64,000 nucleotides of DNA from Plumapathes pennacea. Its lineage: Eukaryota > Cnidaria > Anthozoa > Antipatharia > Myriopathidae. This document shows positions 8,159-34,225 of the stretch, one piece after another (position 1 is the stretch's first letter; each line of letters opens with the position of its first letter). The stretch covers positions 5,576,501-5,640,500 of the forward strand of contig OZ038468.1 of assembly GCA_964036295.1 (NCBI GenBank), read 5' to 3'. Under the pieces are notes generated by a model, which did not search any database, was not told the origin of the DNA, and saw nothing but the letters and a program-made list of their open reading frames with translations. A program made the position numbers and the translations under genes.

Positions 8159-8256
8159 AGTGTATTTTTGTCGTTTTGATATTTGTTGATTTTTGATGTT
8201 TGTTGTTTTTCTGATGTTAAATAAAATAAAAAAAACAAACAACATGTGCACACATG
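8159..8256. terminator. 3' end of the preceding gene
   Basis: AAATAAAATAAA around 8219-8230 offers AATAAA-type poly(A) signals after the stop at 8156-8158. Confidence 0.4.
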
Positions 8257-8339: not shown

Positions 8340-8434
8340 TGCTGACACACCATCACATGATTTTTTTGAAAATAGTTCATAAATAGAAATCAGAAAATAA
8401 AATTTGAATCAGTTGATGGTTTCTGTCTTTTGAG

Positions 8435-8908: not shown

Positions 8909-8967
8909 GGACGAAGAAATGGTAAACACAAGTTGATTTAAAAACTGTGTTTTTTATTCATGTTTGT

Positions 8968-11329: not shown

Positions 11330-11386
11330 AAAACAGAGTTTGTTCAGTGATTACAGAAAAGCTGTTAATTTTGAAAAAGTTTTTTA

Positions 11387-11812: not shown

Positions 11813-11861
11813 GGCGAAAAAGTGATTTTACTTGTATGTGATGTCTTTTTATGTCCTAGGC

Positions 11862-12188: not shown

Positions 12189-12399
12189 GATTGTTTGATG
12201 GTTGTTTTTGTAATTTAACACCTTTTATATCTTCCGGTTTTTTTGAACAATGCATGAGTGGGTAGAAATACGGGGGGTTTTGCAGCGTTTCAGTTGGTTG
12301 AAGCATCATTTGATTTGGGATAACTCCTGGAAAGCTTTTTCCACTTGTTGTTGCGGGTGTTTCTACCTCTGTTACAACAGCGACGGTTATCCTCAAACA
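12181..12399 (-). CDS. Possible small protein upstream of the polymerase
   Basis: An ATG at 12399 opens a short basic frame, but the frame beside it, without an ATG, has better protein character (Thr/Pro-rich, PYFYPLMHC) and runs to 12181. A frameshifted small gene or a leader is possible. The evidence is weak and no function can be given. Confidence 0.25.
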   Translation of the reverse strand, partial: CLRITVAVVTEVETPATTSGKSFPGVIPNQMMLQPTETLQNPPYFYPLMHCSKKPEDIKGVKLQKQPSNNHV

Positions 12400-12447
12400 T
12401 GATCGAAAATATGAGTGTATGATATGAGTCTTTTTTATTTATAGGTT
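12400..12447 (+). promoter_or_regulatory. Polymerase upstream region
   Basis: TTTATTTATAGG at 12432-12443 lies directly before the ATG at 12448. It may be a TATA element or a T-rich splice acceptor ending in TATAG. Confidence 0.3.
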
Positions 12448-16654: not shown

Positions 16655-16692
16655 AAGAACGCGTTGTTCTTAAAAAACATGCAGACTAAAAA

Positions 16693-17807
16693 ATGACGGA
16701 GATCCATCGTTCGAAACAATGGACGTACCAGCCCCCACCCCGCAAGAATCGGAATGCGTTTCTCTCTGCGCTGTATACGGATCCGGCCAGCCCTCTAGCG
16801 TTCTCAGGGCTGAACGTGTTTGCTCGTGAGGCCAAGCGTCGCTACGGTATTCCAAATGCTGAAACGAAAGCGTGGCTGCACACGCAGCGCGTCTATACCA
16901 AACAGCGTCCGGGCCCCCGTCACAATCGCTGGGACCCTACCTATGTGACGGGGATGCATGAAACATGGCAGGCAGATCTGTTGGACATGCAAGCTCTGGC
17001 GCCCGACAATGATGGCATACGTTATTTACTGATGGTAGTGGATGTATTGTCACGTCTGGCTTATGTGCGTGCTCTCAAGAACAAAACGGGCAGTGCTTTC
17101 GTGGCTGCGTTCGAGTCCATTGTGGACGAAGCGCAGACCAAGCCACGAACTTGCACACGGATCGGGGCAAAGAATTTTACAACAAGAGTATGCAAGCATG
17201 GTTGAAAGAACAGTCCATCCATCATTATAGCACATTTAGCGACAACAAAGCGGCAATTGCGGAGCGTTTTAATCGAGAATTTAAGCAGATTATTAATTTC
17301 ATCATTCACACACGCGAAATGAACTATGTGAAACAATTGCAGGAGTTTGTAAAAGGTTACAATTCAAGACCACATTCAAGCATTGGTATGGCTCCCCAGG
17401 ATGTGACCACCTGGAATCAATATCAAGTGTACGAGCGTCTGTACAGTATAAAAGGCCGACGTGTTCAACATCCTCAGTTACGTGTGGGTGATTACGTTCG
17501 TTTGAGTATTGCCAAAGCCAACATGTTTCAAAGAAGTTATTACGGGCGCTGGACCGAAGCTCTGTATCGAGTGCGTCGCGTGGTGCACACTTTAGGAAAC
17601 CCGCGCTATTTAGTGGAAGAATTGGATGGTACTCCTATCGAAGGTCGATTTTACGGAGACGAAGTACAAAAGGTTCCCTATAATCCCCAACAGGATTTTG
17701 CTGTAGAAGAAGTTTTAGACGAACGAGGGCGAACCATGAGGGGTAAGAAAGTAACAGGGTATCCGGATAAGTATAACTCGTGGATCCCTAAAAAGAATCT
17801 AAGATGA
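16693..17807 (+). pseudogene. Polinton retrovirus-like integrase with chromodomain, one frameshift
   Basis: This is a DDE integrase (rve fold) that inserts Polinton DNA into host chromosomes. The first catalytic Asp is in WQADLLDM (near 16975), the second in HTDRGKEF (near 17156), and the Glu in AIAERFNREF (near 17262). The C-terminus has a chromodomain-like segment (VEEVLDERGR, then YNSWIPKKN), as in other Polinton integrases, which may direct insertion to particular chromatin. The frame shifts by one base near 17148, just before the second Asp, separating residues 1-170 from the rest. The stop TGA overlaps the next gene's ATG (ATGA). Insertion could only continue if another copy supplied the enzyme. 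Confidence 0.93.
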
Positions 17808-18916
17808 GTGTTCATAATGTGGAGGGACAGACAATGACTTTCTTTAGCAATGGTGAATCGCGTAACGGACAAGTCAACACTCCTGCGAATTTTAATGTGA
17901 AACTGCCCTATCCCATCGATTTGACGGGAATGCAAGTGCAAGTGATGAGTGTCATTATTCCTACCTCGTGGAATGCCATTTCTCGCAAACATCGTGACAT
18001 CAAGGCACCTCGTTGGGTGGTGACTGGCGGATACGATGGCGCCAAAAATATCAGTTGGAAAAATTTGAGAATGAACGAGCATTCAAAATATTTGCGATGT
18101 GAAACAACAGACAGTCAGGGTCAAAAAAAGAAACAGGTACGCTCCGTCCTGTTTACGCTGGAAAACAACAAACCCTACAAAAACGTCTATCTAGTGCTCA
18201 TGCAAATGATGCGACAAACGTACAGCGCCTTCCCTCTAAATCACTTAAAAAAATTACGGTTTACTTTTGAAAATGGAAACGCTGATGGGTCGTTTGTCAA
18301 CAAACAACGCATCACCATTGAAGACACTGATGGACACGATTACAAGATATGGGTGAATGAGACCATGGCAAAACTGCTTCGTTTTGGACAAGACCCTAAT
18401 GACCTGTTGCCGCGACGCTGGTTGGTGACTGATGAAGGGGTGCGGGGAGGTCAACTGGTCAAGGAAAACCAATTGCCAGCACGGGGCGGCTATCTAGACA
18501 GCCCTTTCATGTGCACCTCCGACGGACAAATTGACCGGAGCGGCACTAGACAGTCCATTAAGGAGAACAATGCTATTTTGATGAATGCAAGCGCTACCAC
18601 CATGAGTGACGAACAAATTGGTCGTTTTTTGCTGTATTCCACCCTGGGTAAAAATGTGGTTGTCGGCAGTATCTTGTCAGGTTTGCTGGCCATTGTTCCT
18701 AATCCGGGGGACAAAGAACGATTGAACACTGCGGCATATACACACCGTGTTGCTAATCCTATTCCTATACAGACGGAAGATAAAGTCATTAAAGATATCT
18801 CGTTTCAATTTTTTGACGAGGAAGGAGAAGAAATTGATTTTGGCTGGGGAGCCACCACAGTGATAGTCTATGTCACAAAACGACCTAGCAACAAACGAGC
18901 CTGGGACAGTCTATAA
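17804..18916 (+). CDS. Penton/PY-like virion protein, paralogue 1
   Basis: The 370-residue intact product belongs to a beta-rich family common in Polintons. An N-terminal motif (NTPANFNVKLPYPIDLTG, then IIPTSW) pairs with a C-terminal (FFDEEGEEIDFGWG, then VIVYVTKR) block. Known Polintons usually have one protein of this pattern, thought to be the minor capsid (penton-like, 'PY') protein; I assign that role with moderate confidence. The ATG overlaps the integrase stop. It is the first of three tandem paralogues (17804, 18957, 20199). TATAAAAG at 18912 overlaps its stop and probably drives the next gene. Confidence 0.65.
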   Translation: MSVHNVEGQTMTFFSNGESRNGQVNTPANFNVKLPYPIDLTGMQVQVMSVIIPTSWNAISRKHRDIKAPRWVVTGGYDGAKNISWKNLRMNEHSKYLRCETTDSQGQKKKQVRSVLFTLENNKPYKNVYLVLMQMMRQTYSAFPLNHLKKLRFTFENGNADGSFVNKQRITIEDTDGHDYKIWVNETMAKLLRFGQDPNDLLPRRWLVTDEGVRGGQLVKENQLPARGGYLDSPFMCTSDGQIDRSGTRQSIKENNAILMNASATTMSDEQIGRFLLYSTLGKNVVVGSILSGLLAIVPNPGDKERLNTAAYTHRVANPIPIQTEDKVIKDISFQFFDEEGEEIDFGWGATTVIVYVTKRPSNKRAWDSL

Positions 18917-18956
18917 AAGGAAACCAAAAAAAGGAACACATCATTTTTTAAAAAAC

Positions 18957-20174
18957 ATGGCGACTCCCATCGTTGAGTTGCTCAGTAATGCTCGATATGT
19001 GGGAATAAACACTCCCCAAAAATTTACCAATCAACTGCCCAAACCAGTGGATTTCACAGGCTGGGAAGTAGGTGTCCAAGAATTAAGCTTGCCGACCACC
19101 TGGTTTCAACCTCAAAGACCCATGACATGGGTAGTCACACGCGTGGGTATGGATGCAGGAGAGAGTTCGATAAGCAAACTTCGAAAAGCTGTTCACGGGT
19201 TTCAACAATTTCCCGAGTGGGAGAAAATGAAACTGGGGTCTTATGCCAAATGGAATACTCAACCTGCTGATGATTGGATCAAAAAAGCGCGACCCCTAGG
19301 ACATCTTTTAGTCATGTCGCTGAAGCCGGGACTTTACTTCACAGGCGAGGATGTGGCAGAACAAATAATTCGACAAATCAATGACGTCTACGAGGACCTT
19401 CCTCATCAAAAACCTAGCTTAATGTTCAAGAAAGATTATGTACCTGGATTGGGTCGTATCGAAGAAACCACTCCCGATCAGACAATTGTCATCCAGATCA
19501 ACCGCAACTTGGAACGCTGCCTGCGATTTCCCTCTCGCGATCCCATTAATTATTTTTATGGGGGAACATGGTTTTGGGATCCGTGGGCGCGACATGTAGA
19601 CCCTAAAGGGGCGTATGGTCATTTTCGACCTATCACAAACGCCTTTGTGGCACGTGGAAGACTACATGGCGGGGCTGGGGGTGGATTATTGGGGGATGTA
19701 GCATCCCGTCCACCATACATTTTTCACATGGACCCGCTGGACCATTTTCATGCGGGCCCCTTACTTTTTGACCCCTTTGCCGCCAATTTGAACGAGACAT
19801 TTGGAGAATTAGTCGATGATTTTCATCCCGACCATCAACCACCAGACTGGCCGACTAGTGAACTCTGGGGGCCGCGCGAGGCACAGCGAGTTGGACAGTG
19901 TTTTTATTTGCATGGTGATTTTATTCGAACACAAATAGTCAATAATGCTGAAGATTCTTTATTGGCTGTGGTTAAGAATCCCGGACTAGTACCAGAGGCA
20001 CCTATACAACATTGGGAAGAAATGAACGTATCCTATAAAGCTATGAAACCTGAAATACGGCAGGCTCTTACAGTGTGGTGGGAAGATGATCGCGGTCAAC
20101 CACTAACCTTGGGAGACACAGGTGTCAGCCGTGTACAATTACATTTTCGAAAAAGTATAAATAAACATGCGTAA
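18957..20174 (+). CDS. Penton/PY-like virion protein, paralogue 2
   Basis: The 405-residue intact product starts MATPIVELL. The N-terminal motif is NTPQKFTNQLPKPVDFTG followed by LSLPTTW. The C-terminal block (WWEDDRGQPLTLGDTG, then VQLHFRKS) matches the family pattern of a charged Gly turn and a final LHFR strand. An in-frame ATG at 18870 lies inside the previous gene, but the TATA box at 18912-18918 places transcription downstream of it, so 18957 is preferred. It is probably a capsid-vertex or other structural protein. Its sequence has diverged well away from its neighbours, so the three probably have separate jobs. Confidence 0.65.
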   Translation: MATPIVELLSNARYVGINTPQKFTNQLPKPVDFTGWEVGVQELSLPTTWFQPQRPMTWVVTRVGMDAGESSISKLRKAVHGFQQFPEWEKMKLGSYAKWNTQPADDWIKKARPLGHLLVMSLKPGLYFTGEDVAEQIIRQINDVYEDLPHQKPSLMFKKDYVPGLGRIEETTPDQTIVIQINRNLERCLRFPSRDPINYFYGGTWFWDPWARHVDPKGAYGHFRPITNAFVARGRLHGGAGGGLLGDVASRPPYIFHMDPLDHFHAGPLLFDPFAANLNETFGELVDDFHPDHQPPDWPTSELWGPREAQRVGQCFYLHGDFIRTQIVNNAEDSLLAVVKNPGLVPEAPIQHWEEMNVSYKAMKPEIRQALTVWWEDDRGQPLTLGDTGVSRVQLHFRKSINKHA

Positions 20175-20198
20175 ATAAAAAATTCATTTTTTCTCAGC

Positions 20199-21269
20199 AT
20201 GTCTGATGTTCTCTTTCTAGCCAGCAATGCGGCACACACGCTGTCCTTCACCAACACGCCCGGGAATTTTATTGCACCCTTTCCCCATCGTGTTACGTTT
20301 TCCGAGGATGCAGAAGTGGCTCTCAAATCGCTGACAATTCCCAACTCGTTTATACCTCACAAAAAAACATCAACACTTGGCGTCTTGGACTCATGCAAAG
20401 CACAATGGCTGCTGATGTGGCGCCCTCCTGTGAGCAACCGACCTATACCCCCTCGTCTAGATACTTTGGCCATTGAAGTCAAAGCAGAACCACATGGCAA
20501 ATGGTTAGGGAATCGAAAAGTGGTTTTGTTTACCTTACCTTCAGGAGAGTACGAGGTGGCTGATGTGGTAGATATGATTGTTAAAATTACCACAGATGCT
20601 TGTGGTGATTTTAGACCGCGATTTCTACGCTTATCGTCGAAAGCACACAATCATCAAGATTTTGCACATTATTGCATTCTTCACGATATGTCGAATCAAT
20701 TCATTCTCTTTGTCAACCCGTTTTTAGCCACGCTTCTAGGTGTAGGTATACCTGCCCCTGAATTGTCTGGCTATTACATTCATTTATCCTATGGGGAATT
20801 CCAATATTTGACCAAAGAAAAGGAAACCAGTCTGGGTATCACTTCTCCCCTTGGCGGACTGTTTCAGCCTCTGGACCAATTCTTGCCCCTAACCAAGAAC
20901 GGTCGCTCCACCAGTGCTAACCCTATTGAGCCCATCATACGACGCCATAGCTTGGAATACTATGAAAATCAAAATAATGTGGTCCGTCACCAAATCTGCG
21001 TTTATTCCGATCTCATTCATAACAGTAATGTGAACGGTAAAAAAGAACCTCTCCTCTTCATGGATGTCTTACCACCTCTCAACCCTGACAAGCCGGTCCA
21101 CGAATATGTGGTCTATCACCCTCATTATGTCCCCATTAAAGTGGGTACCTTCCATCACTTTCACATTTGGTTCAAAGATGAAGACGGACATCCACTGGAA
21201 TTTACCCCCAGCGACACTGCCACCACTTTCATGACATTACACATCCAACGAAAAAATATCTATAAATAA
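20199..21269 (+). CDS. Penton/PY-like virion protein, paralogue 3
   Basis: The 356-residue intact product has the N-terminal NTPGNFIAPFPHRVTF then LTIPNSF motif and the C-terminal WFKDEDGHPLEFTPSD then MTLHIQR block. The ATG is preceded by a pyrimidine tract ending TTCTCAGC, a good splice-acceptor shape, and by TATAAATA at 20156-20163. TATAAATA at 21261-21268 overlaps its own stop. The role is as for the other two, with structural function likely but not shown. Confidence 0.65.
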   Translation: MSDVLFLASNAAHTLSFTNTPGNFIAPFPHRVTFSEDAEVALKSLTIPNSFIPHKKTSTLGVLDSCKAQWLLMWRPPVSNRPIPPRLDTLAIEVKAEPHGKWLGNRKVVLFTLPSGEYEVADVVDMIVKITTDACGDFRPRFLRLSSKAHNHQDFAHYCILHDMSNQFILFVNPFLATLLGVGIPAPELSGYYIHLSYGEFQYLTKEKETSLGITSPLGGLFQPLDQFLPLTKNGRSTSANPIEPIIRRHSLEYYENQNNVVRHQICVYSDLIHNSNVNGKKEPLLFMDVLPPLNPDKPVHEYVVYHPHYVPIKVGTFHHFHIWFKDEDGHPLEFTPSDTATTFMTLHIQRKNIYK

Positions 21270-21307
21270 GAGTGTCACCCCTTAATACATTAGCACACAA
21301 AAGCACC

Positions 21308-21541
21308 ATGGTAGAAATCAGTTCAAAGTACAGCCGTCTGCAAGGCGTACCCCTCTACCCTCAAACACGTTCCACAAGGGTGTTGGGAAAAAGAGACGCC
21401 GTCAAGTGGGCTCTGGTACCATTCGTCCCTACCCCGTCCAAGAAAAACGCAAACAGGATGGAGGACGTCGCAAACACAGAACCCGTGTGCGTGTATCACG
21501 CGGTCGCCGCCCCTAAATCATTATGCAGTAAAAACAAATAA
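21308..21541 (+). pseudogene. Small basic protein, probably frameshifted
   Basis: The ATG at 21308 follows TATAAATA at 21261 by 40 bases and opens a frame to 21541. From about 21375 another frame has the stronger character: GKKRRRQVGSG, KRKQDGGRRKHRTR and SRGRRP, ending at 21516. This fits a highly basic DNA-condensing core protein, of the adenovirus protein VII or mu type in style only, with a frame break near 21365-21385. Several neighbours have the same basic, Gly-pair signature. Confidence 0.45.
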
Positions 21542-21572
21542 AAGAGAGAAACGAATGAAAATACTGGTCATT

Positions 21573-21813
21573 ATGCGTAAACAAAAGCAGCGTCGACAAC
21601 ATTGCAAAAAACGACTTGTCCGTCGTTAAACAGAGAGGGGGTGCTGTTCGCAAGTACAAATGCCGAAAAATTGATGATGTGGCCGAAGTCATGTCCATGT
21701 TTTTAAGTGGACCAAGCCCCACCTTTGCCACAGCAGGTCGTCTATTGGCCAAACAAGCCTTTAAAGGTGTTGTTGACAACACCCCGCTACCCAAATACTT
21801 GAACAGCTTGTAA
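21573..21813 (+). pseudogene. Small basic RGG protein, frameshifted
   Basis: The ATG at 21573 opens a very basic N-terminus (MRKQKQRRQHCKKRLVRR) that meets TAA at 21627-21629. The neighbouring frame continues with KQRGGAV and a further 60 residues to 21813, so one base separates them. It has the same N-terminal plan, a basic block then RGG, as the next two genes. It is probably a virion core protein, with RGG a possible maturation cleavage site. Confidence 0.5.
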
Positions 21814-21814
21814 C

Positions 21815-21994
21815 ATGTGTAAACGTAAACAACGCCGTCGAAAGCGTCGACAGCGTGGTGGCAATCCATTCATAGCTGCCTCTATCTGTAAAAAATTTCC
21901 TATTCAGTGTGTCAAAGGCATGTTAAAAGCACAAAGTGCTAATGTAAAAGTGCGTAAAGCGATACTGTCAGCCATGGGGTTAACAAGGATATAA
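21815..21994 (+). CDS. Small basic RGG protein, 59 residues
   Basis: The frame is intact: MCKRKQRRRKRRQRGG, then a moderately hydrophobic helix-like C-terminal part. The start lies two bases after the previous stop and the stop overlaps TATAAATA at 21990. Size and composition recall adenovirus mu/pX-type core peptides, a resemblance of style and not demonstrated homology. It is probably packaged with DNA. Confidence 0.55.
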   Translation: MCKRKQRRRKRRQRGGNPFIAASICKKFPIQCVKGMLKAQSANVKVRKAILSAMGLTRI

Positions 21995-22032
21995 ATAAAA
22001 AGACAAAAAAGTAGAAAGACTTGTTCAAAAAG

Positions 22033-22478
22033 ATGGCTAAAGGACAACAACGGAAGCGCAAGCAGCAGAAACGTGCTCAGCGTGGTGGTATGAGCGATGT
22101 GGAAAAATGGTTTCGGGAAGTTGGCTCTGCCGTTATCCCCAGTCTGGCTGTTGATTCCCAAGAACAAAGACGACAGCGCAGTCTCGGAACGCCGGAACGC
22201 GAGACTTTTCCAAAGGTAAAAACAAGTATCGCTTGGCAGGCAAACTAGCCATAGGTGCTGCCACTGGTCCAGCAGACCTCGCTGTGGCTCTGGGAACAAG
22301 TGCTCCCGAAATTGGTTCGCGATTAGGAAAAAGAAAAAGGAAGAGAAAATATCATGGAAGCACTTGGCGCGTTCGGTCCTGGAAGGCCAAACCCATAGCG
22401 GACCTGTGGGGTGGTGCCTTTTTAGCCGGATCGAATTTTGGACACCTTTCCAAACTCTGGAAAAAAAAAAGACGTTAA
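22033..22478 (+). pseudogene. Basic RGG protein with hydrophobic middle, frameshifted
   Basis: The ATG at 22033 follows TATAAATA at 21990. The N-terminus (QQRKRKQQKRAQRGG) repeats the basic-RGG plan. The frame changes near 22180-22205 into the one encoding KNKYRLAGKLAIG, an Ala/Gly-rich segment, KRKRKRK and a Lys/Arg C-terminus ending at 22478. It is likely a core or cement protein. The intergenic TATA and the tight packing support a real gene despite the break. Confidence 0.52.
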
Positions 22479-22533
22479 TCTGTTTATAAATATGAGGTTC
22501 ACGTTCTTTATTTTTACCATTTTAACCATCATC

Positions 22534-23299
22534 ATGCGATACATGTTCAAGTACCGTCACAATTATGGGGCCTCAGCCTACCCCCAACAGCACGGGGGTG
22601 GATTTTGGAGAGATCTGGCAGGAACTGCCGCCAAAGCCGCTGGACAACAACTTGAAAAACAAGCCAAACAATATGTGTCCAGTGGTCGCTTAGCAAAAGA
22701 TTTAAAAAGTTTATCCGAGGATGCCACTCCATCACCTTCCACGACCACGCCCATTGAACAAGCTGTCCAACCCAAATTCACCCCAGCTGCAACCCCGCCC
22801 ACAGTACCAGCTGCCCGCAAAACAACTGTACCAACAGCACCTCGAATGGCCCCTGCTGTACCAGCTCCCCCTCAAGCAGCCCCCTCTTTACCCATGATGA
22901 CAGCTCCTACACCTGCTACTACCCCCGCTTTACCAACACTTGCCCTAGGCACTGTACCTACAAGCACAACAGCAGGCACCCCTGTACCAGAAACCGCCAC
23001 GGCTACTAAAAAAGAGGGTCCTTCTTGGATGCAAACAGGCAGAGGTCGCAAAAGAAAACGCGCCAAAAAACAAAAAAGTTGTCAATTACAGACGACCACC
23101 CCCCTTCTTGGGAAATTGGCAAAAAGGAAAAGGCTATTTGGGCAGTGTCATGGGGAAAAAAACCAGGGCCAGCGACTTTCTGGAAGGAAAAAAACAGCGC
23201 AGAAAGGGAAAGAAGCTAACAGCCAGAGACTATGCAAAAATGGCAACAATGAAAAAACAGATGAAAAAGGGATACAAAACAAAGAATATCTGGTTGTAA
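22534..23299 (+). pseudogene. pVI-like virion protein, frameshifted
   Basis: The N-terminus YPQQHGGGFWRDLAGTAA has a Gly-Gly-Gly-Phe-Trp site followed by an amphipathic helix, the arrangement of adenovirus-type protein VI (membrane-lytic, protease-matured). A long Pro/Thr/Ala-rich linker and a Lys/Arg-rich C-terminus follow. TATAAATA at 22485-22492 contains the first in-frame ATG, so the start is placed at 22534. Two breaks in A-rich runs (near 23065 and 23120) split the basic C-terminus over three frames, ending at 23299. The pVI assignment is inference from architecture and position just before the major capsid gene. Confidence 0.55.
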
Positions 23300-23343
23300 G
23301 CAAAATGTATAAATAGAATGCTGTCACCGTCATTTTGTTAATC

Positions 23344-24807
23344 ATACCTAAACAGCGTGGAGGAGGTCGCAAGCGAGCCCCATCTCGCCGAAAAGCAGTC
23401 TCGGCTGCACCCATTACTACCTCACTCATGAATCCCGGACTCAATTTGTTCAGCCCTCCCCCCATCAATGACACCTTGTATGCTTTTGAAAGTTAGGAAG
23501 TGTACCCTCTCAATGATTCCATGAAGCCCCTCCATTTTCGTTTGAAAAGAGCACATTGGATTAATTTGCGACGCTCTTCTCTGAGACTACGATTGGGCTT
23601 GGTGTCAGCAGATGGAAAGAAAATCGACGAGGATTGGACCACTCATCTCATTGGAGCAGTTCAAAACACTGCTCCTTCCTCCATTTCGCACATGGAAATA
23701 AAATTGAATGGAGAATCACTTGGGACTCCAACCCCCAAAGATTTTGGCTACAAAGAATGGTGGTACGCCTGGTTTTACATGAGCGAAGCAGACAAAAAGA
23801 GTTGGGGGCGGCAACAGGGCTACACCCCATTCCTAGACATGGATACAAATGACAGTGTGGCAGATGGTACCAGTGTAAATGATGGCACATTAGTATTTAA
23901 ATATCGATGGGAACAGTGGATGACCAAAACGGGTGGTGCTGGTAAAAACAAAACCCGATATTTGGGACCGAGCGATTTTGTCATTCCTTTCAAGCAGATT
24001 CCCGAACTGGCCCGCATTGAATTCCTTCCACCTAACGTGGAAATAGACCTGAAAATTCACTTTCACAACAACAACTGGCCCCTGATGACCGCCAAAGCAT
24101 GGCAAGGCAAACTAGTGCCTATCAATGACGATGAGAAAATCTTCATTGAATTGCATAAAGCCATCATGAACCCAGCCCACGTAGCCCCCATTGAAAAAGA
24201 ACTGACCCACCCCGGCGGCCGCAAAGCCACCTACGTGATCACACGACCGGAACTGAAAGACTACAACATCACAAATGGTGTGAAAAAGTATCACATCCCC
24301 AACGCCCGGGTGGGAGTGATGCCCAATTATGTTGTGCTCATGCTCCAGCCCCAAGTCAATTATGAAAAACCCGATACCGCTACAGATGATGCTGACGGTG
24401 GCAACGGGCGGGAAGAAAACCCCTACACGTTTGGAAAACACAATCTGATAAAAGTGGAAACCAATGGAGATGGTGGCTATGACATAATTGACTTGAAAGA
24501 AAACCCAGCAGAACCCTATCGCAGATTCATGAAAATGTATGAGAACACTGGAGATGGTATTTACATGCCTCAAGAAACATTTGACCAAAAATACCATTTC
24601 ATCATCTTCAACTTCACCCCCGCTGAGAGCCCAGCAGACCCGCAACTCTATAAACAACCCCACGGCACGCAGTCATTCACACTCTACTTTGACGGTCCAG
24701 GCGGAGTAGGTGCCCAAAAGAAACTCAAAGCTTTGCTTCTTTTCTTTGACACTCCTTTACTGAAACTGGACATGTTGGGCTCCGTGGAATTCCAAGATCG
24801 TGTCTGA
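23344..24807 (+). pseudogene. Polinton major capsid protein (double jelly-roll), start and early codon lesions
   Basis: From 23500 to 24807 an open frame encodes 435 residues with the features of the Polinton hexon-like capsid protein: a leading strand region (LNDSMKPLHFRL), the IKLNGESLG segment and beta-rich sequence throughout. Coding sequence clearly begins earlier. The same frame from 23344 has a basic PKQRGGGRKRAPSRRK start, but the first codon reads ATA instead of ATG and TAG interrupts at 23494-23496. The N-terminal RGGG matches the basic-RGG pattern of the neighbouring small proteins. The body of the protein is otherwise undamaged. The protease and ATPase genes follow in usual Polinton company. 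Confidence 0.88.
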
Positions 24808-24819
24808 AAAAACACGAAT

Positions 24820-25355
24820 GTGACTGCCCTCTGGACCGATCAAATCAATCAACTCTTATCCCAACACCCTCTCACACAACACCTGTTTCGAGGCGTGTTT
24901 GCCTGTGATGAACTCCCACCCCCTTTCCCCCTAGACGCACACGGTCACTTTCGACCCTGGCTGCTCGTTGTCAATACTCATCCGGCGTCCAAGTCGGGGG
25001 AGCGGACGACCCCCGTCAATTGCACATCTTTAACAGTTACGGACAAGATCTCCAACAGTATCGCAACCCCTGGTTCAATCGTTTTCAAAAACACTTTTCC
25101 ACTTCCCATCAAAATCAAATTCAATACCAGGGCATGAACAACGCATGTGGTTATTACTGCATCGTGGTGGCTGCTGAACGCGGTCTCAAAGGACGCTATG
25201 ATTTTCATTCTCTACCCTATCTGAAACCTCTCGCATTCGTCCAAAACGACCGTCACATGGCTCACTTGGCCAGCACCGATTTAGACCCCCAGGATGTTAT
25301 TTCTGATATTAGTTTAGCCAAAGGGCAAACCTGTACCTACAAAATGCATAAATAA
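24820..25355 (+). pseudogene. Adenain-like maturation cysteine protease, broken
   Basis: This is the C5/Ulp1-like protease that matures Polinton virion proteins. The N-terminal part (FACDELP, then RPWLLVVNTHP) is in one frame. From about 25000 the next frame carries HIFNSYGQ and the NNACGYYC segment with the catalytic Cys near 25150, ending at 25355. A one-base shift in the G/C-rich stretch 24998-25015 separates them. The GxHW motif that normally supplies the catalytic His is not visible where expected (SGERTT). No ATG opens the frame (GTG at 24820). All three point to a dead copy. CATAAATA overlaps the stop. Confidence 0.85.
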
Positions 25356-25391
25356 AAATGTTCATTTTTTCTTTTCATTCCCAGTGTCATT

Positions 25392-26123
25392 ATGCCTAAA
25401 CGACGTGCAACGTCACAGCTGACGTATCCCAAGACCATCAAAAAACATGCGCATGAACTCGACTTGCGTTTCAAACACCCGGCGCGCATTCTCGTTTCTG
25501 GACCTTCCAACAGTGGTAAGACCACCCTCATTACAGAGATTTTTAAATGGAGAAAAGAGTTTTTCCAATGGCCCATCACAAAAATTGTGTTCCGCTACGG
25601 TTCTTGGCAACCCGCCTACGATTACTTGAAAAAAATGGGCGTGGAATTCAAAGAGGGACTCCCCGAATCCATCGAAGAAGACTTCCCCCAAAAGACACCC
25701 AAGAACGAAGTGCGCATTCTGGTCCTAGACGATCAAATGGGGCCAGCCGTCAATGACCCGAACACTCTACGCCTATTCGTAGAAAAATCACATCATTGGG
25801 GTGTGACTGCCATCATGACCTCTCAAAACCCCTATCACCAAGGAAAACACAATGTAGACATGGCTCGCAATGTGTCTGTAGCTATTTTCATCATTGAACT
25901 TCGCAACATGGACGTCATACGACGATTCTTACACAGCAGTTACACCGCAGAACAAGTACGTGAAATCATGAATTGGCTTCGACGCACCACCCATCGTAAA
26001 CCTTACTCGAACTTTACAATTGATTTCGCCATGGACACTGATGACTGTCGCCTTCGCATCAACTTAATCCCCAACGAACAGCACGGGCCCACTCGACTCT
26101 TTTCCCCGTCCTTAACTCTATAA
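25392..26123 (+). CDS. Polinton genome-packaging ATPase (FtsK/HerA, A32-like)
   Basis: The intact 243-residue frame is the motor that pumps DNA into the capsid. Walker A is GPSNSGKTT (25499-25525) and Walker B is ILVLDDQMG (near 25718), followed by the sensor-like MTSQNPYHQGK, as in other Polinton and PLV ATPases. The start ATG at 25392 follows a strong acceptor-like tract (TTTTCATTCCCAG), so leader splicing is possible. TATAAAAT overlaps the stop. Among the core genes of element 2 this is the one that shows no lesion. Confidence 0.95.
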   Translation: MPKRRATSQLTYPKTIKKHAHELDLRFKHPARILVSGPSNSGKTTLITEIFKWRKEFFQWPITKIVFRYGSWQPAYDYLKKMGVEFKEGLPESIEEDFPQKTPKNEVRILVLDDQMGPAVNDPNTLRLFVEKSHHWGVTAIMTSQNPYHQGKHNVDMARNVSVAIFIIELRNMDVIRRFLHSSYTAEQVREIMNWLRRTTHRKPYSNFTIDFAMDTDDCRLRINLIPNEQHGPTRLFSPSLTL

Positions 26124-26156
26124 AATACCGCACCCCCTTTCCTAAAAACATTAATC

Positions 26157-26504
26157 ATGGCGACCCCGTGACGTGGCCCCACCCCCCTCATGCGAAAACA
26201 CAAGCATTTTTTATGCAACCTCGAACACGACCCCAGCCTCTTGATACCTGCTGGTCCCCAACAGTTGCGTGCTGCCCAAGAAGTCTTGCAAAACATCAAG
26301 ATGGGCACCCTCCCCTTACCCCCCAAATTCATAAAAGGCGTGAAACGACAAATATTGGGACATGCCCTGGAAACCGCCTGTGACCACAGAACGCAGCGCT
26401 GTCGACTCCAGTCTCTCTTCCGAGGCAATAAACAAACAGGAGGATTTCCGTTACACGTGGTCTTGCGTTGGGGTATTCGAAAAGTAGTCAAACACGCTTT
26501 TTAA
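26157..26504 (+). pseudogene. Small basic protein of unknown role, early stop
   Basis: The ATG at 26157 follows TATAAAAT at 26119 by about 30 bases. TGA at 26169-26171 interrupts after four codons, after which the same frame is open to 26504 and codes for about 110 residues. These are basic, with FLCNLEHDPSLL and a C-terminal GGFPLHVVLRWG segment. An internal ATG at 26190 could restart translation. Position in the late cluster suggests a virion protein; no family is recognised. Confidence 0.5.
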
Positions 26505-26507
26505 AAA

Positions 26508-26954
26508 ATGACCGAAACCATTGTGATCCCCTCTTCCCAAAAAAGAAAACGTTATGACACTCCCGAGTGGAGTGCTCCTATGAGCATGACCCCTGATCAA
26601 CGCCACTACAATGCTCAAGCCACAGGCAAACATCTCCAAGCTATCCTGGACAATCCAGCCGCTTCAGTGACCCAAAAACGTGACACCTTTATGCATGAAC
26701 TGAAAAAATTCCAAGAGCATCAAGAACAGCAGCCGGCCGTCTCTCAAGCCCGTGTGGTCATGGCCACAGCCCCGCCCAAGAAACCCTCCCCCAGCACCCC
26801 AGCAGCCACACGCAAACCCCGAAGCCGTCTCGCCCCTCTTCCCCTTACCCCAGTCACTCAAAGAACCCGGAGAAAACGACCACAGATAGGCAAAGGAATC
26901 CACTATGTATCTTTTAATAAAGATCCTCGCAAACGGCGAGTTTACATTTTGTAA
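26508..26954 (+). CDS. Proline-rich basic late protein
   Basis: The 148-residue intact product starts three bases after the preceding stop. It has a basic site KRKRY near the N-terminus, a Gln/Glu-rich helix, a Pro/Ala-rich linker (APPKKPSPSTPAA) and a basic C-terminus. AATAAA overlaps the stop region and closes the plus-strand late cluster, which converges on the large minus-strand gene. Function unknown. Confidence 0.55.
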   Translation: MTETIVIPSSQKRKRYDTPEWSAPMSMTPDQRHYNAQATGKHLQAILDNPAASVTQKRDTFMHELKKFQEHQEQQPAVSQARVVMATAPPKKPSPSTPAATRKPRSRLAPLPLTPVTQRTRRKRPQIGKGIHYVSFNKDPRKRRVYIL

Positions 26955-26978
26955 TAAAAATCTTTTACAAACAACTTT

Positions 26979-29881
26979 TTACTGCCTCTTTTCTGACAAC
27001 TCTTTCACCACATCACTCAAATGCTCATCAAAAAACATGTCTGACACTTTGTAGTCTGACATAAATGCATCCACGCGGCGATTCAGTTGATGAAACAGTT
27101 CCCTTGAAGCACCCCACGTAGTGGGGAAATCCTGAAGTAATGCAGCATCTTCAGAACCTTTGGGGGGAGGGTCAGGCACTTGACACGCAATCACATCATA
27201 CATGGCTGCCTAAGTGACGGGGGGTGGGTCGCAACGTGTTTCCCGCTGCCACATGCGAATCAAATCTGCTGGGGGCGCAATGGTTAAAATACTGTTAGTT
27301 ATTGTCACATCAAGATGGTGCTGTTCCATCACTTCATTCCACATCATCTCCATACTGGCCAGATTCAGTTCATTCAAAATCTGAAACGCATGCTCGCTCC
27401 AGACAGAACGCATGGATTGAGTGCATGCGTCATGCAACCTCCAGGAAGAAGAACGACAACCCAAACAGGCACTGCGACAAAAACGAACAATAGTTGCTCA
27501 CATTTCTTCCAAGATAATTCCCCAAAAGCAATGCATCAAGGGTGGAATGGCGCGACTCCGAATTATTTGCTGGCGCAATGTGCGGCGACGATCCCGACTC
27601 TCGCTCAACTCTAGCGACTTCTTCTTCGCAGCCTCGTCCAACCCCCGATGCCAGTCTTCATAGGCCTTGCTGGGTTTTTCTTTCTTTTCTTTTTTCCATT
27701 CTTCGTAGTCCTCGGTAGCCATACGGGCGATGATGTCTTTTTCTGGGGGTTTCACTACAGGCTTTCCATCATTCAAAAAGATCTCCAATTGCTCTTTCTT
27801 GTAATCCATCTCATGGTACCCCTCCAACAATTCCTCCACGGTTTTGTCTTTCCACATTTTGATATCTCTTAGATTCTTTTCCATCACTTCGATTTCCTCT
27901 CGGATGATTTGACACCATTTCTTGCTACTCTCCACTTGCTGTTTTGTCTTCTCTGACTCAATCATATCTGTTGCATTCAAGATCTCTTCCAGAATGGCAC
28001 ACACATCTTGCACAACATCCAGACCCGTTCTTTTTTTTTCTGGTGATGGAGGGGGAGGGGGAGGGGGTGTTGGAATGGCTTCCAGTGCTGCCACGGCTTC
28101 TTCGACGCTTTCGTAGGTGGATGTGGTTCGATGTGCTAACTCCTGAAAAGCTCTCGACATGGAAAAGAGGGTTGTCTGGCTAGTGGACATGTACACATTG
28201 TACTCATCCACGGTACCCGTAAAGGTGATTTCCTCCAGCAAATCCGTACTCAGATCTGAATATTCCCCATAATACATCATATAGGGTGGTGACTCCATGA
28301 TTATCTGTCGAATCTTCTTTTGAATCTCCTTTCGAATCTCCTTGTCATCGGTGCTGGACAGAAAATCTCTTGCCATCACCAGTTCCTGTAGATCAACAGG
28401 ATACAACTTTTGGTACGCAACCGTGGCCATTTTTCGAAAATACTTCTTTGTCGTGAACGTGAAATAATACACGCTCTCGTCGTCGGACCCCTTGAGAATC
28501 ATTTCCAAAAACTCTTTGGGAATATCCTCATAATCGCCAAACACACCGCGGAATTGTGATTTCCACTAGGTGGTTTCCTCGGGGGTGGCATCTCGGCTGT
28601 GCAACACTTCACATCCTGGCTCACCATCGGGACATACAGTGTTCACATACAGTTTGCGCGTTCCGTTGATGTCTTCGTACTGGATTCTTTCTTGATCCTT
28701 TTCACTGCGCATCCATTTCTTGCGCTTCGCATGAATCTGCTTTTCAGATAGCGCTCGAAAGCCTATCCCTTTCATGGGCTCCACTTTATTCTTTTTTCTC
28801 AGTTTAGGCATCTCCTCCTTCTCCCGCTCTTTAACTTTGGCCAACGACACATTGTACCAATCACCCTCACCAGGCGCATTCAATTCGGGGGGGTACACTT
28901 CTTGTCCGTTGATCACATTCGCGCGACGAAATGGGTCGTGCGTCAAATCGGGCGTGTGAGGATCCACATAGGCAATCTTCACCCACCGCCTCCGCTTCTG
29001 ACTCGGGCACTAAGGCTGAATAAGGATAAGGATAAGGATCATCGCAAGGACGATCGCGTAATTCCGGAGGCTGACACGTTTTCCCGTTCAACACGTTGTA
29101 CCGCTCCCATCGCATTATGGGCGTTATGCTACTCGCAGGACCAATGGTCGAGAACGGAAAGCGATTGAACCACTCCGGTTTGTCTTCGAACAACTCGCGA
29201 ATCACCACAATCTCTTTCAACAGTTTGTGATACCGTTCGCAGGGATGCAAAGTGCGCCAGAATGAAATAGGCCCCGTCTCTGAATACGGTTCTTCATTGT
29301 ACCACTGAGGACTTTGCCGTAGATCAGGGTCACTGGGGGGTACTTTCAGCCAAGCCGCTGCACGCTTCTTCATTTCATTTTCATAATATCCAACACCTAA
29401 AGGCGGGCTAGGACCAAAGGGGGCTAAAATACTGATCTTCAAGGCGTGATTATTTCTTCGGTAATTTTCCTGGGGTGCTCTTAACCACGAAGGCGCCACT
29501 TGTACCAGGGCATATATTTGCATGGATCATTGAACGAAGATAGGCTTGTATAAGGATCACTAAACACACCTTTCGACGTCTCAATCAGATCACCGGTCAT
29601 GCCATGCATTCGTTTTCCTTCGGACTTGTAGACCCAGGGCCAGTCGTCATACCAGGAGACGCTTCTCTTTTTGTAGACGAGCATGTCAATCGGTATAACT
29701 TTTCCAAGAGGGGGCCATCACTGGCTCCGGCAACGCCGGATATCTTCTTCTCCACCTTTTTCTTCTTTCCCGCTGCTTTCTTTGTTGACTTTTTCGCCGC
29801 CGACCCATTTGGCATTTTTCGTTTACGCGGTGTCTTATTCAAAGGAATAAAATCACTCGCATCCAGCATCGCCTGAGCCAT
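26979..29881 (-). pseudogene. Very large minus-strand gene of unknown function, multiply broken
   Basis: One long coding region can be followed from the ATG at 29881 to 26979, close to 960 codons. The start is Lys-rich (KKSTKKAAGKKKKVEKK). The middle has a loosely repeated motif (R..N.I/LNG..C/VYPPEL) at about 28880-28930 and 29040-29110. Then come long helical charged segments, an eight-proline run near 28050 and a Leu-rich end. Breaks are frame changes near 29690, 29500 and 28985, then in-frame stops at 28566-28568 (TAG), 27498-27500 (TGA) and 27210-27212 (TAG), after each of which the same frame resumes. It could be two or three genes rather than one. It reads from the divergent promoter at 29882-30140. 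I recognise no domain; a large structural or tegument-like protein is only a guess. Confidence 0.55.
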
Positions 29882-30140
29882 GTCACTGAATAATTTTTTC
29901 TTTTGTAGCATCGCGCTTTTTAAGATATTTTTCCAAGGGATTCGTCAGCATGTTGTTTATTTTTATCGCCCCACGTGGGATGACGTCACCTAGTACCACG
30001 TGCATCATCCCACGTGGGGGTCAATGTCAACAACAACGGAAAAACCTATATACATCATCCCACGTGGTGCAACCTATTTTTAGCGGGAAAAACCCTATAT
30101 AAATCGCGTTTTTTCTACTTTTTTCCACATCGCGCCGCTG
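29882..30140. promoter_or_regulatory. Divergent promoter: three CCCACGTGG boxes plus a perfect CRE
   Basis: CCCACGTGGG at 29970-29979 is followed at once by TGACGTCA at 29981-29988. More copies lie at 30009-30018 and 30059-30067, each within CATCATCCCACGTGG, plus CCACGTGC near 29996. TATATAAA at 30096-30103 serves the plus-strand gene. The region separates the large minus-strand gene from 30171. Confidence 0.75.
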
Positions 30141-30170
30141 ATGTTTTTTCTCTCCACTGCTTTCATCACT

Positions 30171-30793
30171 ATGACCAATTCTAAACCTCGCACCGTATTT
30201 CCAAAATACACTCAAAACTCTTTCATTCGTTACAAACCCTGTGATGAAGATTGGAAAAAAATCTATGACTGGATCAACGAACAATATCACAACTGATACA
30301 CAGAAAGGGACCAAGAAGAGCATGAACAAGAACAAAACGAAGCGCAACAAAAAGAGTTTGAACGAACTCTCTTGGAAGAAGCGATCGTCGCTCTCAACTT
30401 TGTTCCCCAAAAAAGCTTATTGCAGACCGCCAGCCAACGCAGCTTCGTCCTCTTCGACGCCATTGCCAAGTACGTGATGCACAATGAGCAAAGCAGCGAA
30501 TGTTGCCCAGACTTTCATACGGCCTCAACTCGAGCTTGGACCAAAGAATTAGTGTGTGGCGCCATTGACTACCCTCATTGGCATGAAGTCTACACACGGA
30601 TGAAAACCAAGTGGGCGAATATGGAACGAAAAGAACTGCCAAAACGAAAGGTGCTAGCGACCAAAACGCCTATCTCATCGAACAGCGGTGGAAACAGCTA
30701 GAAGAAACCTTGTTCAAAGAAACACTGGAAGAACTGAACTTGACCACCACCACTACCACTCTGTATGTAACTACATTTGTAAAGAAATCATAA
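30171..30793 (+). pseudogene. Helical hypothetical protein with stop and frameshift
   Basis: ATGs at 30141 and 30171 share one frame, and TATATAAA at 30096 favours 30171 or both. The frame has WKKIYDWINEQ, meets TGA at 30294-30296, continues with a Glu/Gln-rich helix and conserved-looking Trp/His segments (YPHWHEVYTRMKTKW), and changes frame near 30645 to end at 30793 with LIEQRWKQLEE. About 205 codons are involved. It is the first gene of the accessory end. Family unknown. Confidence 0.5.
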
Positions 30794-30846
30794 ATAAAAA
30801 CATTTTTTTACTTTTATTCTCATTCGACATCTATCTTTCGGCGAGC

Positions 30847-30951
30847 ATGTTGTATTTTCTTAAATGTGACCGCTACGATACCTACATAGCTGAATACGCT
30901 GAATACAACGCTGAATACAAGTATCAAGTAGAAAGCGTCGTGGTCGGGTAA
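30847..30951 (+). CDS. Possible short Tyr/Glu-rich exon or peptide
   Basis: An ATG at 30847 opens 34 codons with a repeated AEY motif and ends in GGGTAAG, where the stop TAA lies within a GTAAGTT donor-like site. It may be a first exon rather than a full gene. Weak. Confidence 0.3.
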   Translation: MLYFLKCDRYDTYIAEYAEYNAEYKYQVESVVVG

Positions 30952-30961
30952 GTTAAAAACC

Positions 30962-31219
30962 ATGAATTTTAGACAAGAAATGAAAATAGCGCGTCAAAAC
31001 ATTGCAGACCGTCACCAACAATTTCAAGACTACATGGCCACACATCACCCCAAATATTCCTACAGTTGGAATTATCTCACTCCACAAAGCAAACAAGGCT
31101 TTATTGAAGACCGGCGGCGGGAACTTATCAAGACTTACTCCCCACGCATGCAAGAACTGATATTTTATTATATGACAAGCGAAAAACAACAACAAGAAAT
31201 GGCCACACTATACCGCTAA
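30962..31219 (+). CDS. Small helical hypothetical protein, 85 residues
   Basis: The intact frame starts MNFRQEMKIARQN, is rich in Gln, Arg and Tyr, and has no transmembrane segment. It sits ten bases after the preceding short frame. Function unknown. Confidence 0.45.
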   Translation: MNFRQEMKIARQNIADRHQQFQDYMATHHPKYSYSWNYLTPQSKQGFIEDRRRELIKTYSPRMQELIFYYMTSEKQQQEMATLYR

Positions 31220-31262
31220 GCTGAACACAATGTGCGCTGTGCATTTGATGGTGTTGTTATAA

Positions 31263-31412
31263 AAGCAAAAGAAGAAGCAAAAGAAACAGAGTGACGGAAG
31301 CCTCTGGATTACCAAAGCAGAGCAAGAAAGGCGAGAAAAAGAACAACAAAGACAATTTGATAACAGTTTCTTTGGTCGCTTTCTTCACAAGGCATTCGAT
31401 AAACAAAAATAA
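31263..31412 (+). CDS. Possible charged peptide after a TATA-like site
   Basis: The frame without an ATG contains LWITKAEQERREKEQQ and NSFFGRFLHKAF, ending at 31410-31412 next to AATAAAA. TTATAAAAG lies directly before it. It could be a terminal exon. Weak. Confidence 0.25.
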   Translation, partial: KQKKKQKKQSDGSLWITKAEQERREKEQQRQFDNSFFGRFLHKAFDKQK

Positions 31413-31501
31413 AACATGTAAAAACATTGAACAATAAAAAATCTTTATTTCAAAACATGGTGTTTTTAAAATACACTTTTAACACCGCTTTTTCAAAAAG
31501 T

Positions 31502-32235
31502 TCAAAGTTCCTGACACGGAATGTCATAGCGAAGAACCACATCACTATTAAGCAACATAGATGGATCGCATTCACCTCGCATACCCGCATTATTACAAGG
31601 CCAATCCTTCTTGTCCCAGCCCTTGTCGAATATCTCCACGGCTTTTCGCCACCGCATCCATTCCGCCACTTGCTGCAATTGTGCATTGAAATCCGTCCGC
31701 AGAAACAGTTTGCGAATGAAAATGGTCGCACCGGCTCCGGCAAGCGCATCAGCCAAATCTTGAACTCGCTTATGGACTCAGACTCGAACTTTTGCCAGGC
31801 CTCGCTGCGACAAAAGAGAATCAGCAATGACTCGTGACCGGTAATCGGTGGCTGTGTTGGTGATGGTATCTTGACGAGCGGTAGTAATGATCCGAGAATT
31901 CGACGCCGCTTTCTAGTTGACTTCTTCTGGGTTACATTCTGTAGCTTCTTAAACGCCGCCAATGCTGCATCCAATGAGTCAAAGGTTCCAAGCGACTCGA
32001 CTGAACCATTCTTGACAGGAATCGTTTTGTTCGGACCCACTCGCAACTGTACATAACCCGGCGGAGTTATTACAGTTTTCTTCGTACCATTCTGCATCTT
32101 CTGCATATTCTGCGTATTCTTCATCTTTTGAAATGCGGCCAATGCTGCATCGCGAGAGCTGAACTTTTGACCATTGTTCGGAACAAAAAAGACATACAGA
32201 AACAGCGCAACTACGAGCAGCACAATCGACTTCAT
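31502..32235 (-). pseudogene. Signal-anchored membrane protein with AALAAF repeats, frameshifted
   Basis: From the ATG at 32235 (another in frame at 32253) the product begins MKSIVLLVVALFLYVFF, a signal peptide or type II anchor. Two related motifs follow, DAALAAFQKMKN and DAALAAFKKLQN, then a basic KRKRRR patch. Near 31760 the frame changes by one base, and a Trp/Cys-bearing C-terminal domain (WDKKDWPC, then GECDPSMLL) runs to 31502. Total length is about 245 residues. It reads away from the CACGTG promoter at 32254-32425. A virus-encoded membrane or secreted protein is likely; no family is recognised. Confidence 0.55.
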
Positions 32236-32253
32236 TTTCGTGTATGCATTCAT

Positions 32254-32425
32254 TCTCCCCCGCTTCCTGTTTTTATAAACAAATCAACACAACTATTTTT
32301 ATCTTTGCTTACGTCACCCCACGTGGGATACCAACGTGATGGCATCCCACGTGGGGGTGACGAATCATTTTTCAATTATAAATAGTGTTTCACTTTTTAA
32401 TATTTTTCACTCAAGCATAACAACT
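32254..32425. promoter_or_regulatory. Divergent promoter with paired CCCACGTGGG and TGACG sites
   Basis: TTACGTCA at 32309-32316, CCCACGTGGG at 32318-32327 and 32346-32355, and TGACGAAT at 32358-32365 form a near-symmetrical array. TATAAATA follows at 32377-32384. It stands between the membrane-protein gene and the FAM72-like gene. Confidence 0.75.
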
Positions 32426-32478
32426 ATGGCAAACATATGCCTTCATGATTGGCAGACTATACCAGACCACAAAAACTG

Positions 32479-33153
32479 ATGCGAATAAGCGCATGGAACA
32501 ATCAAGAAAAACTCGTTAAAAGACGGGGTTACGGTCCTATTCAAGCTGGCATTGACTGGCAAGTTTTTCGAGACGAAGCCGTCGTGGTTATTTGCTGCAA
32601 AACCTGCGAGCATGTTTTGAGCGTGAAAGGTTTACGCGATCAACACTGGGCCATGTCCACACACGATCGTTATAACTGTCAACCGTGGTACTACACCTCT
32701 AGCATGCCTCTAAAAAAGTAGGTTTTTATTTTACCATTTTTCAATTCATTGTTTTCATCTACTTACATTATTTTTATTTTTATTTTTTGTTTCAGTTCCG
32801 TACAACTTACAGGTGATTGGCAGTGGGGTCCAAACTGCTATTGTGTGATTCAAAACATCCAATGCACCAACTGCAACCACTACGTAGGCTACAACGTTCG
32901 CATGCCTTGTTTCGAATGTCTTGAAACCACGCACAGCGGCAATCAATGGATCTTTCACCCGGACTCAGTCGTAGCCATTCCCCGTACCCGACGTGACTCT
33001 ACCACTCTAACTCACGGGCTACACCATTGCATCGTCGATTCAGAACAAGAAACCGAGGACATCAAGCGTGACATTCAAGCACAATTAAAGGCACCCCGCG
33101 ACTCTGCCACTCTCGTTGGACGGCTAAGACAACTAAAAGAAACCGAAGTTTAA
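32479..33153 (+). CDS. FAM72-like zinc-binding protein, spliced
   Basis: Exon 1 runs to 32717 and exon 2 from 32796 to 33153, joined in phase 2 (GTAGGT donor, TTTGTTTCAG acceptor). The product has the order of motifs of animal FAM72 proteins: ICCKTC then VLS, a TG, CYCVIQNIQCTNC, VGYNV, PCFEC and W-x-FH. FAM72A binds nuclear uracil-DNA glycosylase UNG2 and promotes its loss, so a viral copy could lower uracil repair; that is inference. The cysteine pattern is complete and the Trp before FH is kept. The start is uncertain: an ATG at 32426 lies in another frame and stops quickly, so 32479 is chosen. TATAAATA at 32377 precedes both. Host capture is likely. Confidence 0.7.
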
Positions 33154-33170
33154 CTTCATTTACCCTCATC

Positions 33171-33932
33171 ATGTCAGTCGTGGCGGACGTGCTAAACTTT
33201 GAAGCGTCTATTGAATTTGGCATCACAGGGCAGCATTTAGCTGACCAAATTCAAGCTTTGATGTCTGAAAAAATAGCTCCCAAATCGTATTGTCATGATG
33301 ATAGAATGACAGATTTCCTCCATCACATCCAAGATACAGAAGAAAAAACCACACGTCTTCATGATCTCCTGCTGGCTTATAAATTTCTTCGACAAGAGTT
33401 CTTCCACGACAAACAGTACGATTTTGTAGTATAACCGCCACTGATGACACCTGACTTCATCTGCGAAGTGCATTCCCGTATTTTTGGTAACAATCACCCC
33501 AGCCAATTCAGTCCATACGTACGCTGCACTACCTTTGGCGGAAAAGAGTACACCTACTCATCCCCCAAAGAAATTAAACATCAGCTGGAAACACTCTGTG
33601 ATCGCTTCAATGATCTCCACGAATTTATTCTCCTAACACTCTACGAATCCTCCAAACTCTGTGCCTGGTTCATCTATAAACTCCTGGACATTCACCCCTT
33701 CGGCGATGGCAATGGTCGTCTCGCCAGACTTCTAACCAGCCACATTCTCCAACATGTCATCAAAGCTCCCTTCCCTATCTCCATCCTAGGATCCTCAGAT
33801 AACTTCACTGAAACTCTGGTCGACGCGCGAAGCTGCAATGGTGAACCCAAAACCCTGACCACTCTACTCCTCCGTTCTGCTCTTGATGCCTTGAAAACCT
33901 ACAAACAATGCATTTCAACATGCAGTCAATAA
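33171..33932 (+). pseudogene. Fic-domain protein (AMPylator type) with in-frame stop
   Basis: The catalytic motif HPFGDGNGRLAR (33692-33727) matches the Fic signature HxFx(D/E)GNGRxxR in full. Fic enzymes transfer AMP from ATP to hydroxyl side chains. Upstream, TYSSP resembles the target-binding flap, and the N-terminal ASIEFG near 33207 resembles the inhibitory helix (IEG type), with its Glu kept. TAA at 33432-33434 splits the frame, and an ATG at 33444 in the same frame could still give the catalytic half. That product would lack the inhibitory segment. AATAAA overlaps the final stop. A virus-borne Fic would probably modify host signalling or stress proteins; the target is unknown. Confidence 0.82.
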
Positions 33933-34040
33933 AACACGTTATTTCATATCAATTGTTTTTCTTAATTGTATTTTCATCTTGCTGTCATTAAAAGCACGTT
34001 ATTTCATATCTATTGTTTTTCTTAATTGTATTTCATCTTA
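33931..34040. repeat. Tandem duplication of a unit of about 59 bp after the Fic gene
   Basis: CACGTTATTTCATATC(A/T)ATTG, then TTTTTCTTAATTGTATTT, occurs twice in direct order (from 33931 and from 33990). The first copy contains the Fic gene's AATAAA. Confidence 0.85.
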
Positions 34041-34225
34041 CTTCCGGTCAACCCTTCTCCCCACCCTCCCCTACCCCTCAATTCCCCTCCTACAGTGACA
34101 AAATTCACCCCACCCCCACCCCCTCAGTTCCCGTTTTTAGGGTGACAAAAACCATCCCCAGGGGGTGGGGGTAAGGCATCTCATTAGTATGCAAAGTGGG
34201 GCATTTTCCGGACACCATACTACTA
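34041..34225. other. Probable right edge of element 2, C-rich
   Basis: The sequence is pyrimidine-rich (CCCCACCCCC) and has no coding frame. I could not find its inverted copy near 5 kb, so the terminal inverted repeat expected of a Polinton is not shown. Confidence 0.35.

Follow-up and report, generated by a model that had tools for sequence, protein, structure and literature searches.

The stretch of DNA analysed here (the window, 64,000 nucleotides of Plumapathes pennacea) holds a Polinton copy that carries, near its right end, a spliced FAM72-like gene followed by a Fic gene (Table 1). Its DNA polymerase is of the protein-primed type (PF03175, 33.2 and 46 bits, cut-off 25.8). The integrase-like matches (rve, E 0.0014; rve_3, E 7.8e-6) and the Pox_A32 match of the ATPase ORF (E 0.00077, 19.4 bits, cut-off 22.8) fall below the curated cut-offs. 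The ORF that we take, from its position, to encode the putative major capsid protein gave no match to Pfam and an unusable predicted model (pLDDT 29.5), and has one database relative (P0001). Three consecutive ORFs of 370, 434 and 356 aa at 17804-21269, with N termini alike by eye and no Pfam match, are perhaps tandem minor-capsid genes. In six relatives the Fic gene is open over 285-297 aa. The family has PolB, terminal repeats in inverted orientation and 6-bp duplications in common with known Polinton/Maverick elements, including the adintoviruses, as it may also have the integrase-like and ATPase-like genes; to these it adds two accessory genes, FAM72 and Fic. Adintoviruses are described, in the available text of PMC11071296, as having a PolB with an N-terminal OTU-like domain, a hexon recognisable by BLASTP and an integrase with a chromodomain.

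Table 1. Features of the Polinton copy and its FAM72-like gene, in window coordinates
Feature	Position	Strand	Remarks
Polinton copy	7233..34224	+	left end missing, ~1.6 kb compared with two sister copies
DNA polymerase B	14140..16309	+	PF03175 above cut-off in both ORFs; several frames
rve-type integrase	16693..17807	+	two ORFs; Pfam matches slightly below curated cut-offs
Putative major capsid ORF	23500..24807	+	presumed from position; no Pfam match
Packaging-type ATPase	25392..26123	+	weak Pox_A32 match
Divergent ORF, 267 aa	31450..32253	-	shares promoter segment with FAM72; no Pfam match
Near-palindromic promoter segment	32306..32365	.	two CCCACGTGGG boxes and flanking CRE-like half sites; between FAM72 and the divergent gene
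TATA-like string TATAAATA	32377..32384	+	begins where the original prediction placed the start, 32377
FAM72-like exon 1	32479..32717	+	ATG at 32479; first zinc-type Cys pair, C40 and C43
FAM72-like intron	32718..32795	+	78 nt, GT-AG, phase 2; aligned position and phase of host FAM72 intron 1
FAM72-like exon 2	32796..33153	+	C94, C96, C103, C106, C118, C121; WIF; virus-specific tail EDIKRDI
Fic gene	33171..33932	+	PF02661 in 33444-33932; HPFGDGNGR; two pieces in this copy
Right terminal inverted repeat	34083..34224	.	similarity among copies stops here

The right border of the element was read from its relatives. When the right arm was compared by BLAST with the 25 other non-host FAM72 loci of the genome, similarity stopped at 34222-34233 in 20 of them, the right end of L026, L027, L029, L033 and L034 not being common by DNA similarity, and the flanks past the shared end differ among the 19 copies compared. 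Two sister copies that carry FAM72 are bounded by terminal inverted repeats and 6-bp target duplications: on C2 the element opens with a stretch that repeats the right end in inverted orientation (95.8% identity over 143 bp) and is flanked on either side by GACGTG, and on C8 the duplication is AGCAAG; their coordinates give these elements lengths of ~28.9 and 29.0 kb. Beginning at 7233, the window copy retains the right end only, and a search for terminal inverted repeats inside the window found no pair because the left end of the element is missing.

Several further features were seen around the element. Tandem arrays with units of 45 bp and ~241 bp (4410-5384 and 5787-6691) adjoin the missing left end. 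On the other side, the base next to the right end of the element opens the first arm of an inverted repeat of 282 bp (99%; 34225-34506 and 60557-60838), and 2.1 kb past that end lies an ankyrin-repeat ORF (36328-37353) with a weak SOCS-box match. Two short stretches at 1526-1764 are similar to 12889-13118 read in the inverse direction; the PolB of a second Polinton family lies on the opposite strand immediately left of the window (C7:5574764-5576248), and this second element probably reaches into the window.

The gene had been named FAM72-like from an ordered set of motifs, and the full set is present in the spliced product, which is 198 aa long and is the sole uninterrupted outcome among six combinations of donors and acceptors. 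This product matches PF14976 (FAM72; Pfam name YPEH2ZP) with E 2.6e-20 and 73.5 bits, above the curated cut-off of 27 bits, which confirms the assignment and excludes a chance occurrence of the motifs; a second viral protein, from L033, reaches 75.7 bits. Comparison of a profile of four viral proteins with one of 17 cellular FAM72s gave a probability of 99.8% (E 2.4e-27). YPEL5/Moh1 and Mis18, whose Yippee-type domain is described as being of the same fold class in the accessible parts of PMC12687426 and PMC11377751, resemble it weakly in sequence; the Yippee-Mis18 profile gave just E 0.023, and a PDB search with the viral FAM72 returned weak Mis18 matches only. As a lone query against 5.8 billion proteins, the 198-aa protein gave 21 candidates, none of them significant.

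The window copy is degraded, and more complete copies exist elsewhere in the genome. Its PolB is spread over several frames, its Fic gene is in two pieces and the start region of its FAM72 is altered. The N terminus of this FAM72 copy is probably shortened or damaged, since the upstream in-frame start of its relatives is, as read by eye, out of frame here.

A promoter of the CACGTG/CRE type had also been proposed, and it is matched both by the two boxes with their CRE-like half sites and by the enrichment of CCCACGTG in the window, where 12 matches at 7 places were found against 1.25 expected and a maximum of 5 in 100 shuffles. All 12 are within the element, and CCCACGTG palindromes occupy three of its intergenic places (10025-10050, 29970-30066 and 32318-32355); they are candidates for a shared E-box-type control of the genes of the element. 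Among 24 copies (L029 and L034 being left out), the region up to 420 bp upstream of FAM72 contains CACGTG in 22, CCCACGTG in 21 and a TATA-like string in 22. Judged by these motifs, FAM72 seems to come under the regulatory system of the element itself.

Is FAM72 linked to Polintons elsewhere in this genome? PF14976 gave 29 matches in the 290 Mb, three of which belong, as exons, to a single gene on C4, and the resulting 27 loci comprise one ordinary host gene and 26 others, including the window. The host gene, as we read it, has four exons and encodes 150 aa (224 bits), and neither capsid, ATPase, Fic nor PolB was found near it. With fragmented matches merged, a putative capsid or ATPase match lies within 25 kb upstream on the same strand at 22 of the 26 non-host loci, compared with 0.65% when 20,000 places were drawn at random from nine contigs; PolB adds two loci, so that 24 of 26 have a Polinton core gene within this distance, and Fic follows downstream on the same strand at 25 of 26. 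The two loci lacking a core gene within 25 kb are C2:28681111, which has Fic at 4 kb and other element pieces ~41 kb off, and C8:6161556, which has neither core gene nor Fic.

FAM72 characterises a single Polinton family of this genome, since 16 ATPase matches of another family (56-58% identity, from query residues 21-23 on) have no FAM72 within 30 kb; Fic occurs within 15 kb in 4 of these 16. It is also missing or undetectable in some members of its own family, because six listed ATPase loci outside the FAM72-less family, such as C11:8922065, have no FAM72 within 30 kb. In viral contigs, no FAM72 was found by one scan with the spliced protein and two scans with alignments; the putative capsid ORF gave no match there, and PolB one weak match (35%). 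The proposed linkage is supported as repeated within this genome (24 of 26 loci); the scans of viral contigs showed none. The original prediction knew of no described Polinton FAM72; no report of one was found in the open-licence literature, none of the papers listed there on FAM72 and viruses concerns a viral FAM72 by its title, and the main text of the adintovirus survey PMC11071296 has no occurrence of FAM72. The placement of the gene inside a Polinton, as originally proposed, is borne out by the common right end, by the terminal repeats and target duplications of the sister copies and by the repeated linkage. Two contrary outcomes, the absence of a profile match and a host gene outside the element, were both tested for and neither was seen.

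With the host gene added to the query alignment, a search retrieved 245 proteins, and each of the 120 matches listed scores at least as close to the host protein as to the viral ones. For the tree, 12 of the 26 viral loci were sampled together with the host protein and 24 database proteins out of the 120 listed (26 were taken, P0022 and P0056 being dropped). The 12 viral sequences make up a single clade (100/99) that excludes the 25 cellular FAM72s, and the host protein groups with FAM72 of Nematostella, Actinia, Montipora and Acropora (91/84, not starred), which fits an anthozoan host. L033 and L019 were marked as long-branched, and the root and inner order of the viral clade are unsure owing to long branches. 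In the alignment, the viral intron and intron 1 of the host gene interrupt the same codon, both in phase 2, which suggests that a cellular FAM72 was captured as genomic DNA with its intron 1, not from mRNA. Viral genes have one intron or none, in contrast with the four exons of the host gene. The intron is absent from L033 and L034; the viral FAM72 of L033 (2154-2957) is also extended by a long stretch at its N terminus and keeps VW at the W125 column.

Among the 19 intron-type copies scored (L019, L020, L027, L029, L030, L033 and L034 lie outside this scoring), 12 have open frames and 7 are broken. The 12 open copies, picked because they are open, have a median dN/dS of 0.45 (range 0.23-1.06, 66 pairs), and none of 300 neutral simulations on their tree (mean 0.96) gave a value as low. 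The simulated number of open frames (mean 2.1, maximum 8 of 12) is a biased comparison, because the copies used are the open ones of the 19 scored. The open viral FAM72 copies evolve under constraint.

Which parts of the protein have been kept? The eight zinc-type cysteines are present in all 12 viral and all 25 cellular proteins, and each of these columns is retained in 117-120 of the 120 listed database matches. The columns of W102 and F104 (the FWMF motif) are likewise kept in 11 of the 12 viral proteins. By contrast, Trp125, found in 25 of 25 cellular proteins in the tree and in 107 of the 120 listed matches (10 of the 13 exceptions are labelled isoform or partial), occurs in a single one of the 12 viral proteins and is replaced by histidine in the window copy. 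Near-invariant columns, with one residue common to 24 or all 25 of the cellular proteins, number 46. Of these, 18 are retained in 11 or all 12 of the viral proteins, a C-terminal Arg among them being a possible alignment artefact, and 12 are lost in every viral protein; on this ground we regard the Polinton gene as a divergent viral homologue of FAM72, not an orthologue. Most viral copies have lost RGM, LLAD, STDxPP and NNGH, which are invariant in cellular FAM72 and lie away from the zinc scaffold, and the C-terminal Cys of ECxR is not kept in the alignment used. The viral proteins have a tail of their own: EDIKRDI, near the C terminus, is common to four aligned viral proteins, and the motif D[IV]K[RH]DI occurs in none of the 120 listed cellular matches. 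Taken as a whole, these comparisons indicate that one Polinton family carries FAM72 as a stable accessory gene, derived from a cellular FAM72 taken up with intron 1.

FAM72A (Ugene), known from antibody maturation and cancer, connects an E3 ligase with a DNA-repair enzyme. According to the portions available of PMC12223117 and PMC12687426, it bridges UNG2 to muskelin (MKLN1) of the GID/CTLH ligase, and the former reports that UNG2 degradation results. All human FAM72 paralogues bind MKLN1 and only FAM72A binds UNG2 robustly (PMC12223117, in part), so the two activities are separable; the statement in PMC11377751, as excerpted, that FAM72B is bound to UNG is partly in conflict with this. W125 and F104 have been named as important for the contact between FAM72A and UNG2 (excerpts of a modelling study, PMC8616359).

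We suggest, with a probability of roughly 45%, that the viral protein serves the GID/CTLH ligase as an adaptor, either retargeted or as a decoy. It would act through the host partners of FAM72 and would dock on this ligase through muskelin, as cellular FAM72A does, while no longer presenting UNG2 in the known way. From there two routes can be envisaged: the viral tail and changed surface may bring another protein for destruction, or the viral protein may fill the adaptor site and so block host FAM72. We favour an adaptor with a kept fold, perhaps a kept E3 side, and either a new target or a decoy role because the eight cysteines are kept, W125 is mostly lost and the tail is specific to the viral proteins. 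The losses of RGM, LLAD, STDxPP and NNGH could also have removed CTLH binding. It is possible, if doubtful, that the element codes for a substrate receptor of GID/CTLH (muskelin) in which the UNG2-facing part has been replaced and a new target, from the host or from a rival virus, is taken.

The function originally proposed was different, namely that viral FAM72 removes or inhibits host UNG2 and thereby spares uracil in the DNA of the element from base-excision repair. Family membership through the PF14976 match, the published degradation of UNG2 caused by FAM72A (PMC12223117, as available) and the kept W102 and F104 columns speak for this proposal, and VW is retained at the W125 position in L029 (a fragment), L033 and L034 (which has a stop). 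Nevertheless, it is not supported for the lineage of the window copy, because W125 is missing from the window copy and from 11 of 12 viral proteins, as opposed to its presence in every cellular protein of the tree, and we now consider it unlikely.

Might the viral protein instead serve as a replication or chromatin factor of the Mis18/Yippee type, binding RPA or single-stranded DNA where the element replicates and having no part in protein destruction? The accessible parts of PMC11377751 treat FAM72 as a paralogue of MIS18 (Yippee) and report that RPA is recovered in pull-downs of FAM72B, which gathers on chromatin; the weak Mis18 matches fit this, and the zinc scaffold is the part that has been kept. 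The other Polinton family of the same genome, however, does without FAM72, and we give this alternative a low likelihood.

That FAM72 is a captured passenger without function, simply copied along with the element, would account for the 7 broken frames among the 19 scored, for the degraded state of the window copy and for the several elements of the same type that have no FAM72 match. It is hard to reconcile with a median dN/dS, among copies picked as open, lower than in any of the 300 neutral simulations, with the eight cysteines kept across 12 divergent proteins and with the promoter motif found in 21 of 24 copies; we regard it as very improbable. Finally, a host FAM72 gene merely adjoining the element, which has nothing more than the position near the right end in its favour, can be set aside with near certainty given the true four-exon host gene on C4, the common right end, the linkage and the location of FAM72 inside the terminal inverted repeats of two sister copies.

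The viral FAM72 branch, read as that of a retargeted or decoy adaptor or otherwise, is deep, constrained and altered at a named functional residue. Because the scaffold is kept, the Trp linked to UNG2 is lost in most copies and evolution has been constrained, it constitutes a natural experiment on which surface of FAM72 does what. It also suggests that a Polinton family of animals acts on, and may interfere with, the ubiquitin or repair machinery of its host.
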